Assembly: GCF_028009165.1 (NCBI RefSeq)
Contig: NW_026611618.1
Coordinates: 1,674,001-1,738,000, forward strand
Direction: 5' to 3'
DNA from: Akanthomyces muscarius
Taxonomy: Eukaryota; Ascomycota; Sordariomycetes; Hypocreales; Cordycipitaceae
DNA: 64,000 bases
The notes under the pieces were generated by a model that saw only the letters and a program-made list of their open reading frames with translations, ran no database searches and was not told the origin of the DNA. Below, piece after piece: positions 12,674 to 16,488 of the stretch (positions within the stretch are counted from its first letter, which is position 1; each line of letters opens with the position of its first letter). The translations under genes and the position numbers were made by a program.

Positions 12674-13162
12674 ATGAGTGTCCCACGCGCACGGGTAGTA
12701 GACCTGATGAAGGTATGGACGCATGACAGCCATTCTCCATCGCAGATTGGCTAATGATCCCAGGCACAATGCAAGGTCTTTGCGACGACATTTAACCCTG
12801 AAGGAACGCGACTGGGCAACAAAGTCCTGCGCCAACGCTTACGAGGTCCTGCGATGGCCGCCTACTACCCTCGCAAGATTGTCACAATCAAGGATGTCAA
12901 GACCGAATTCGGCCCAGAGCTGCACACGTGGGATCCTAACGAGGAGGCCCGTTTCGAATACATCGAAGAGTGAGTGTCCATCGACTGCGCCATGGTTCTG
13001 CACAATTGCTAATTTCATACGAACAGATTGAAGGCTCGTGGGAAGAGCAACCCGAAAAAGAAGTCGGCGCCAGCTGCTGCTGGTAAGTGCCTCGTTGGTA
13101 GACTCTGCTGATGCCAACTGCTAACCCTATTCCCAGCGCCAGTGAAGGGCAAGAAGAAATAA
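12674..13162 (+). CDS. mitochondrial small-subunit ribosomal protein mS33 (MRPS33/Rsm27)
   Basis: Four exons: 12674-12712, 12764-12969, 13027-13082 and 13137-13162, giving 108 residues. Introns have clear donors (GTATGG, GTGAGT, GTAAGT), a CTAAC branch site in the third, and CAG acceptors. The protein begins MSVPRARVVDLMK and contains the conserved AAYYPRKIVTIKDV and FGPELHTWDPNEEARFEYIE blocks of the mS33 family, ending in a Lys/Ala-rich tail (APVKGKKK). It is a component of the mitoribosome small subunit head. The short overlapping open frames in the region are shadows. Confidence 0.93.
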
Positions 13163-13985: not shown

Positions 13986-16488
13986 ATGTCTGCACCTGTC
14001 TCCAGCGGTTCGACACCCCAGCGGTCTCTTCCATCTTCACTTGAGCCGTCGCCTCATGAAGCTGCCGGGCAATCAAGTCATTCACCACGGTCCGGGAACA
14101 AGCCAGCTGCTGTGAGACCACATCTTTTGATTATTACCACCTGCCGAGCAATGCTAACATGTGTCTCCAGCATGGCTCTCGTTATCTAGCTGGCCCGAAG
14201 ATAGTCAAAGCGCTCTCGACTTCCAAGCTTGCCAACAGCCTTGGACCAAAGGTAAACAATGGAAACAAACTGCGTTGCAGCATCAAACGCACGATGCTAA
14301 TCAAATCACAACCAGATGACAACGGAAGACGCCAGTGTCAAAGACTCGTACCCTATGGACAAGTTGCTGGCCAAACTTTCCGAGCAACAAGCCACTCTGA
14401 AGCAGCAGTCCGCCCAGTCCAAGATCGAAGACGGACGGTGCTCGTCTTTTGCGGAGCACGAGTCTTCCAGTAATTCACTGCCAATGACGCCGGCGACTGA
14501 TGCCTTTCAAACGACAGCCCCCACAACTCGCCCGGCCAGTGCAACTATAGACGAGGCCCGGCTCGATGTGAATGAGGTTCTCCGCCTCAAGCTGCAACTT
14601 GCACAAGCCCAGAACCAGATATCGAAACTTGACCAAGAACTCGCGCACTCACGAACCAGCGAACCCGATTCCACTACTTCGGGCTCAGCTGCCGGCAGAC
14701 GATCGGCTCCGGCTTCGCGTGACAGCCCTTGGCCTATCACGGAGGACTCACATTCGGATACCAGCGATATGTCTTCGTCTGCATTTAGCCGAGCAAGAGG
14801 AATTTGGGGTCAGCCAAAACCTTCTTTCAGCAACCAAACTAGCCAGTCCAGTGCTGCAGATCCTTCGTCCGCAACCTGGCTAGGAGGTCGCGCAGCGCAG
14901 CCATTTCCCGACCCTGGTGTCTCTTTTCCAGTCACGGATGGCTTCCGAGACCGTATGACCCAGGAGTCTGACATGATTGGCCGCCCTACGAATAATCGAC
15001 GTGGAAGTCGGTACGACAGCCGGGGAGCGGCATCAGGTTTTGTGTCATCTCATGGCCCGAGCGGAAACTATTTTGACTCCATGGGCAACACCATGAGCGG
15101 CCCTGCCATGAACATGAGCCACCCACAAGCCAATCCTGCTATGGTCATGTATCCTCAATACCAACAGGCAGCTGGCACAGCACTGTCTCCGCATGCATCC
15201 GAGTTTACTTCAAAGGCGGCATGGAAAAATGAGGTATACACGTCACCACGTTCGTGAAATTTCCTGACTAACATATTGTAGATGACTCTTTCGGAAGGAC
15301 CTACGTATCTACCTCCTACCGAGCCACTCAACTATCGTCGGCTACTCGATCGCAATGTCAACTGCAACTAGAAGTACATCGTTGACAAGATTGTCTGCAA
15401 TAACGATCAGCAAGCTTCCATTTTCTTACAGCAAAAACTCAAAGTGGGCACACCGGAGCAAAAGTACGAGATTGTCGAGGCCATCGTCGCCCAGGCATAC
15501 CCGCTTATGGTCAATCGATTTGGAAATTTTCTAGTTCAGCGTTGTTTCGAGCATGGCACTCCAGAGCAGGTCATTAAGATTGCCGAAGCCATACGTGGCA
15601 ACACTCTTAGTCTCTCCATGGACCCATTTGGCTGCCATGTTGTACAAAAGGCCTTTGACTCGGTACCTGAGAACTACAAAGCAATCATGGTTCATGAGTT
15701 GCTTCGAAGAATTCCCGAAACCGTCATTCATCGTTATGCCTGCCATGTCTGGCAGAAGCTGTTTGAGCTACGTTGGACTGAATCTCCTCCACAGATTATG
15801 ACCTATGTCAACGAGGCTCTTCGTGGCATGTGGCACGAGGTTGCATTGGGTGAGACTGGAAGCTTGGTGGTCCAGAATATATTTGAAAACTGCCTAGAAG
15901 AAGACAAGGTAAGTCGGAGATAGCGTGTCCGCACCAAAATGACACCACTGACATGGGGGGCAGCGCCCGTGCATTGAAGAGGTCCTGGCGAACATCGACA
16001 TCGTTGCCCACGGTCAATTTGGAAACTGGTGCATTCAGCACGTGTGCGAGCACGGTGCCCCTCCTGACCGAAGCCGAGCAATTGACCATGTTATCCGCTA
16101 CGCATCAGAGTATTCGACCGACCAATTTGCATCAAAGGTTGTAGAAAAGTGCCTCAAGATTGGAGGCACGGATTTCCTCGGCCGCTATCTGGACCGTGTG
16201 TGTGAAGGGCGTCGTGACCGAACTCGAATTCCTCTAATTGACATTGCCAGCGATCAATACGGCAACTACCTAATTCAATGGATTTTGAATAATGCGACGC
16301 CACAGCATCGAGAAATGGTGGCAGCGCACATCCGGAAGCACATGGTGTCTCTTCGTGGCTCCAAGTTCGGCTCACGGGTTGGGATGCTTTGCACCAACCA
16401 TGCAGTGACCACCCGGCCGGGCCATGGGGGCGGACCAAGCATTCCTGGACGATTGCCTGGCCCGAGATATGGCCCCAACTACAGATAA
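13986..16488 (+). CDS. Pumilio/Puf RNA-binding protein interrupted by one in-frame TAG
   Basis: Five exons: 13986-14111, 14171-14251, 14316-15233, 15282-15908 and 15964-16488, 758 codons before the final TAA. Codon 405 (15369-15371) is TAG. The family normally reads NW-KYIVDKIVCNN here, so TAG replaces a Trp (TGG) codon. Residues 1-404 are Ser/Pro-rich with a short coiled coil (LRLKLQLAQAQNQISKLDQE). Everything after the TAG is the Pumilio homology domain with eight repeats; cores include NRFGNFLVQR, DPFGCHVVQK, HRYACHVWQK, GETGSLVVQN, GQFGNWCIQH, DQFASKVVEK, DQYGNYLIQW and SKFGSRVGML. Such proteins bind mRNA 3' UTRs and repress or localise them. The frame after the TAG is intact for 353 codons and its splice sites are good, so it does not look like an old pseudogene. 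If the TAG is read as stop, the product has no RNA-binding domain. Confidence 0.85.
15356..15387 (+). promoter_or_regulatory. hairpin with the Puf TAG codon in its loop
   Basis: Seven-base arms TGTCAAC (15356-15362) and GTTGACA (15381-15387) are perfectly complementary and flank an 18-base loop that contains the TAG (15369-15371). CAAT/ATTG can extend the stem with a bulge. This is seen directly in the sequence; a role in mRNA editing is inference. Confidence 0.4.

Follow-up and report, generated by a model that had tools for sequence, protein, structure and literature searches.

Introduction

In Fusarium graminearum and Neurospora crassa, UAG codons that lie within genes are corrected to UGG by adenosine-to-inosine (A-to-I) editing in perithecia, and F. 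graminearum has 70 genes besides PUK1 that need this correction (PMC11156358). The editing enzyme consists of Tad2-Tad3 together with the activator Ame1 (PMC11156358; PMC11087585). Here we analyzed a 64-kb stretch of DNA from the insect-killing fungus Akanthomyces muscarius (the window, whose numbering applies to all positions without a contig label), which holds a Pumilio-family (Puf) gene with an in-frame TAG where homologues encode tryptophan. We consider it very likely that this gene is an ancient, clade-wide premature-stop-correction (PSC) site, at which A-to-I editing by ADAT-Ame1 would convert UAG to UGG; the editing event itself we infer from the comparisons described below.

The described PSC genes PUK1/STK-21, AMD1, FgRID, FgAMA1 and FgBUD14 resemble the Puf gene in having an in-frame TAG at a needed residue, preceded by U at position -1 (PMC4817773, PMC11156358). 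False introns in annotation are a further likeness to the PSC genes of F. graminearum and N. crassa, which are sexual-development genes (PMC4817773, PMC11156358). Unlike those genes, the present target encodes a Puf RNA-binding protein, its stop is found clade-wide, and its editing is predicted. The body of the Liu et al. 2016 article mentions neither 'pumilio' nor 'Puf'. CHE1 of Fusarium is also similar in that its PSC site is kept between species, lies in a hairpin loop and has caused annotation trouble; it differs as a zinc-finger gene that is edited in hyphae, which establishes that hyphal PSC editing exists in Fusarium, and its site is known in closely related Fusarium whereas the Puf stop spans genera (PMC11169179). 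Another described gene is FgMPF2 (FGSG_05203), a member of the Pumilio family in F. graminearum that is about as long (768 aa), whose deletion abolishes ascus formation and whose overexpression disturbs ascus maturation; as a point of difference, the excerpted account of FgMPF2 mentions no premature stop (PMC13278821). If the window Puf gene plays a comparable part, a stop that is lifted by editing alone would hold back the Puf domain in vegetative cells and release it in fruiting bodies. PSC editing is already known. Among the open-licence PubMed Central papers searched, none described a Puf gene whose premature stop is clade-wide, and such a target would be a new case.

A Puf gene with a single premature stop

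Joining the five exons of the Puf gene (Table 1) yielded 2277 nt in one frame with 758 codons, and all four introns (48-64 nt) have GT..AG ends. The joined frame contains in-frame stops at codon 405 (TAG) and at the terminal codon 759 and nowhere else, leaving 404 codons upstream of the TAG and 353 downstream. The deposited A. muscarius protein, P0121, has 404 residues, is 100% identical to the pre-stop part and ends at the TAG codon; no Pfam family was matched by this product. The Pfam PUF family (PF00806) was matched at 125.3 bits, against a cut-off of 26.3, by positions 15372-15908 alone, that is, with no read-through of the stop. Among the best 120 matches, the closest listed homologue was 98% identical to the Puf protein over residues 378-735. 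When the homologue P0001 was aligned to a human PUM1 chain, the match covered chain residues 29-333 and started 9 residues past the tryptophan. A structure prediction for exon 4 had a mean predicted local distance difference test (pLDDT) score of 59.4, which is of low confidence, and no conclusion rests on it. We also looked for a second intact Puf copy in the A. muscarius genome and found none; the closest Puf paralogue shares 36% identity. This and the other genome-wide searches covered the A. muscarius assembly of 36.2 Mb in 12 contigs.

The sequence-only reading from which this analysis started had placed a TAG at 15369-15371 as codon 405 of a gene with five exons and good splice signals, split into 404 and 353 codons. 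It had further expected termination at the TAG to leave a 404-residue product devoid of the RNA-binding domain, and had seen no other lesion in the 353 codons downstream. Direct reading of the sequence, exon joining and the Pfam search of P0121 agreed with each of these points. Long open frames flanking a stop were rejected as a form of evidence, since a scan of the window found 35 stops flanked on both sides by 90 or more open codons, and the property therefore does not discriminate.

Table 1. Coordinates of the Puf gene, of the splicing and folding features near its premature stop, and of related loci elsewhere in the A. muscarius genome.
Feature	Position	Strand	Remarks
Puf gene (Pumilio-family; 'meiotic coiled-coil protein 2'-type per database names)	13986..16488	+	ATG to terminal stop, five exons
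Exon 1	13986..14111	+	Followed by GT at 14112; frame continues into exon 2; agrees with protein P0121
Exon 2	14171..14251	+	Exon joining
Exon 3, N-terminal part ahead of Puf domain	14316..15233	+	Exon joining
Intron 3, 48 nt, ends TTGTAG	15234..15281	+	ACTAAC branch-site-like sequence just before acceptor (by eye)
Exon 4, holds TAG, then first Puf repeats	15282..15908	+	Exon joining, Pfam PUF
Premature TAG, codon 405, conserved-Trp position; candidate edited adenosine 15370	15369..15371	+	
Exon 5, remaining Puf domain and terminal stop	15964..16488	+	P0001 residues 603-775 match, 93% identity
Rival alternative intron	15234..15371	+	AG of TAG as acceptor; drops 30 codons in frame; junction of four relatives' annotations
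Rival micro-intron, 54 nt, GTCAAC..CAG, in frame	15357..15410	+	Like Aphanocladium album model
Predicted RNA hairpin	15356..15387	+	15370 is fifth position of 8-nt loop 15366-15373
Ame1 orthologue L034 (named by motif and residue spacing)	C5:1087723-1088784	+	DUF726; seven FgAme1 residues at right spacing
PUK1-like kinase L031	C1:382800-384600	minus	..GRCD[TAG]WSIG.., i.e. TAGTGG
RID-like DNA methyltransferase L018	C3:2362403-2362912	minus	Two in-frame TAGs in methylase domain

Tryptophan at the stop position in homologues

In order to establish which residue the TAG replaces, we collected homologues from three protein searches, taking the best 120 of 1329, 578 and 1087 matches, respectively, for a total of 217 different proteins. 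Tryptophan stands directly before KYIVDKI[V/I] in 172 of these 217 listed homologues. Among the other 45, four have a splice junction at the site, three end there, three are models that jump the site, and 35 lack the site or have it out of frame, including a Ustilaginoidea virens model that skips it. Where both flanks are in frame, the residue is tryptophan without exception (158/158). The tryptophan is likewise invariant in a 20-row alignment, in which the window row, read as W, counts for nothing. Because the query had X rather than W at codon 405, this result is not self-fulfilling. The sequence-only reading had expected a tryptophan here, and the homologue alignment bears that expectation out.

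The stop is shared by a clade

Not one of the seven named representatives of the A. muscarius clade has tryptophan at the site (0/7). These are A. muscarius, Cordyceps fumosorosea, C. militaris, Lecanicillium saksenae (also named Corniculantispora saksenae), Beauveria, C. javanica and Aphanocladium album. Six belong to the Cordycipitaceae (order Hypocreales), a family that includes biocontrol agents and edible species, according to a lineage look-up (C. militaris and C. fumosorosea by genus); A. album is incertae sedis in NCBI taxonomy, yet falls inside the A. muscarius clade in our tree. In the deposited models of C. fumosorosea, C. militaris, L. saksenae and Beauveria the end of exon 3 is joined directly to KYIV, with a junction that we write as ..E/KYIV. 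With a GT-AG intron, such a junction requires codon 405 to end in AG and hence to have A in the middle, which fits TAG and excludes TGG. The models of C. javanica and A. album skip the site by other junctions and are uninformative.

Additional lineages were represented by proteins that end at the site and by metagenome open reading frames (ORFs). P0121, P0124 and P0132 all terminate exactly at NVNCN, although in P0124 and P0132, which are metagenome ORFs, the type of stop is not visible. Another metagenome ORF, P0133, runs in the +1 frame (..STATRST) and has arginine across the site, which means that the site codon ends in AG or CG and again excludes TGG; the tryptophan-type ORFs P0144 and P0158 have glycine at that place, as TGG predicts. 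P0131, in the +2 frame, does not discriminate. We then placed these sequences in a tree of the N-terminal part, built from 38 rows (37 chosen from the 217 proteins, plus the window). A branch supported at 100/99 separates nine stop-type rows, two of which (the window and P0121) are the same sequence, from the rest; all 18 tryptophan rows lie outside this group, and 11 rows carry no label. The stop-type rows form one clade that includes two deeper lineages, and P0132 and P0133 sit in its deepest branch. From this position, the stop probably predates the divergence of the P0132/P0133 lineages from the named members. A search of viral contigs for DNA of relatives gave 0 matches.

These data bear on the explanation that the TAG is a sequencing error or a strain-specific nonsense mutation. 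The DNA was indeed read directly from one assembly alone, as that explanation would have it, but several other lineages also carry the stop or have A at that base. An error is thereby refuted for the whole clade unless all those records share it, and we regard this explanation as scarcely credible.

Alternative splicing at codon 405

The strongest rival explanation is in-frame alternative splicing that removes codon 405, either by using the AG of the TAG as acceptor or by excising a micro-intron (Table 1). Both events are compatible with the frame, as the 54 nt of the micro-intron are divisible by three and use of the longer intron costs exactly 30 codons of exon 4, and such splice junctions are used in the deposited models of relatives. 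There is also a precedent in FgBUD14, where editing and alternative splicing occur at one PSC site (PMC11156358). However, the relatives' models differ from one another on the junction, as expected of annotation artefacts, and false introns around the stop are the annotation signature of PSC genes, both PUK1-like genes and CHE1 (PMC4817773, PMC11169179). The normal acceptor is preceded by ACTAAC, and two more AGs lie between it and the TAG. The 30-codon segment is highly conserved and is kept in P0121, P0122, P0124, P0125 and P0132, while the micro-intron donor GTCAAC appears weak by eye. Pyrimidine content provided no distinction between the rival acceptors. Taken together, we judge it unlikely that alternative splicing removes codon 405. 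If stop correction holds, the deposited models of the Puf gene examined for this clade are probably wrong, as they lack either the RNA-binding domain or some of its beginning.

Conservation behind the stop

We compared the Puf protein with six named relatives on either side of the stop. Identity was 76-83% over residues 1-374 and 98.5-99.4% over the aligned part of residues 406-758. Because sequence that is not translated should diverge no less than the upstream part, these values argue that the full Puf protein is made or selected for; by this protein comparison, the part downstream of the stop is under selection. The relaxed constraint past the lesion that characterizes a pseudogene was not seen. 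The sequence-only reading had called the gene unlike an old pseudogene and had taken the TAG for a former TGG. The first statement agrees with a stop common to the clade in front of nearly frozen residues, and the second is strengthened by the clade-wide stop and the conserved residues downstream.

The same comparison addresses the proposal that the 404-residue product is the real protein, with the Puf half being a relic or the product of internal initiation. In its favor, the A. muscarius record gives a length of 404 aa. A relic is hard to reconcile with downstream residues that are more alike between genera than the upstream half, and with the lack of any other stop in 353 codons; an internal start is disfavored by the first in-frame methionine past the stop, which falls within the Puf domain. 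We therefore consider this proposal very improbable.

RNA context of the candidate adenosine

The site reads CUAGAA, with U at -1, G at +1 and A at +3. The published preference is for U at -1 and for A or G at +1 and +3 (PMC11156358), and the sequence context of the Puf TAG fits it. Edited adenosines of this class are also associated with hairpin loops, and adenosine 15370 had a hairpin-loop probability of 0.96-0.99 when folded with flanks of 20, 30 and 40 nt (Table 1).

Editing machinery and other editing-type stops

DUF726, the domain of the putative Ame1, matched at three loci of the A. muscarius genome, one of which (L034) carries the residues of FgAme1. Relative to the nucleophile Ser, L034 has Met at -31, Val at -30, Glu at +15, Arg at +17, Asp at +58 and His at +98, a spacing equal to that of M500, V501, S531, E546, R548, D589 and H629 in FgAme1. 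Mutation of MV500-501, D589 or E546/R548 in FgAme1 abolished function or Tad3 contact, while S531 and H629 were dispensable, and the authors link the gain of mRNA editing to the change to MV (PMC11087585). The genome also encodes a Tad2-like deaminase (HAE..PCIMC) and a Tad3-like deaminase with the inactive motif HCV (HCV..PCVAC). Judged by motif and residue spacing, Tad2, Tad3 and an Ame1 with the Sordariomycete MV residues are all present.

To look for further editing-type stops, we examined two genes whose counterparts are edited in other Sordariomycetes. Among 137 kinase matches in the genome, eight with TAG as the sole internal stop type were examined, and in one of them, the PUK1-like L031, the TAG lies in GRCD[TAG]WSIG, a motif that we take to be kinase subdomain IX. 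PUK1 stops have been placed in subdomain IX, and the TAGTGG arrangement is edited in the N. crassa PUK1 orthologue (PMC4817773). Apart from L031, the kinase matches among the eight were rejected as edited candidates, as their TAGs look intronic by eye. The RID-like DNA methyltransferase L018 has its TAGs at C3:2362811-2362813 and C3:2362688-2362690, with no other stop in that stretch, and thus joins the Puf gene as a candidate for stop correction. In F. graminearum, the RID orthologue is edited (PMC4817773). Both L018 TAGs were in loops by minimum-energy fold, with probabilities of 0.76-0.79 and 0.36-0.97. Orthology of L031 to PUK1 and of L018 to RID was judged from motif and domain. The lineage thus appears to keep editing substrates, more than one odd gene. 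A second methyltransferase match, L017 (C2:4639982-4641190, minus strand), has one in-frame TAA in its domain, possibly within an intron.

The full-length protein could also arise without editing, by UAG readthrough or a suppressor tRNA. Readthrough too would hold the downstream codons under selection. However, it would leave unexplained the PUK1-like TAG at a position edited in N. crassa, and it calls for a mechanism that genes of this class are not known to use, in a genome where Ame1 with the needed residues is present. To our knowledge, UAG-AAG is not a strong readthrough context, which also counts against it. On balance, readthrough seems quite improbable.

Stop correction as the best explanation

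The Puf gene presents an in-frame TAG at a conserved tryptophan of an otherwise intact gene, and stop correction accounts for this as follows. Unedited mRNA would yield the 404-residue protein, devoid of Puf repeats. Tad2-Tad3, the ADAT pair, activated by Ame1, would deaminate adenosine 15370 to inosine, which the ribosome would read as G; UAG would become UGG (Trp) and the product would be the 758-residue Puf protein. Because Ame1-dependent editing in Fusarium is mainly confined to sexual stages, the stop may serve as a stage switch, withholding the Puf domain during vegetative growth, with both the stage and the benefit being presumptive. The sequence-only reading had put forward RNA editing at 15370 for testing. 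That proposal stands as the best explanation and has gained from the machinery and the other editing-type TAGs in the genome, while editing as such is still something we infer.

Several observations weigh against stop correction or soften the case for it. The protein database is clustered at 90% identity, and unlisted cluster members could differ at the site. Models that skip the site also occur in Trichoderma breve (P0179) and Ustilaginoidea virens (P0182), beside models with tryptophan from a sister species or the same species; skipping was rejected as a sign of the stop after these two cases, and only the E/KYIV junction is informative. In a control sample of 500 window TAGs from both strands, 34.6% were in a hairpin loop by minimum-energy fold and 23% reached a hairpin-loop probability of at least 0.8, and the hairpin was consequently rejected as strong support and counts as weak. 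The PUK1-like TAG lies outside a predicted hairpin loop (probability 0.24-0.31), and one of the RID-like TAGs has neither A nor G at +3. In Sordaria macrospora individual editing sites are not conserved and a neutral origin has been proposed (PMC5381528). A site kept across genera is unusual by that standard, although its keeping alone shows no benefit. Finally, no editing study in Cordycipitaceae was found among the open-licence PubMed Central papers searched.

A broader version of the stop-correction reading is that all members of the clade (Cordycipitaceae and close relatives) have relied on editing since their common ancestor to produce a central post-transcriptional regulator, so that editing gates a Puf-controlled mRNA programme. 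We offer this version tentatively, as somewhat less than an even prospect. Should stop correction of the Puf gene itself prove true, mRNA editing would directly control an RNA-binding regulator, and the retention of a nonsense codon at a single site in several genera would provide a good test of restorative editing as adaptive versus a tolerated accident. Detection of G at the base orthologous to 15370 in fruiting-body RNA would extend editing to Cordycipitaceae. For members without a known sexual stage, the retained stop and the frozen sequence behind it would, on the broader version, point to cryptic sex or else to editing beyond the sexual stage, for example in hyphae or within the insect. 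We know of no described sexual stage for A. muscarius. Its genome retains a MAT1-1-1-type mating gene, L035 (C3:1597492-1597905, plus strand), whose inner TGA and TAG fall in an apparent intron.

The upstream neighbor in deposited models

Several deposited models join PF08293, presumably mitochondrial ribosomal protein S33, to the Puf domain, as if the upstream neighbor had been fused to the Puf gene. In the window, a frame at 12758-12973 on the plus strand resembles by eye the start of one such fusion model, P0127 from Beauveria.
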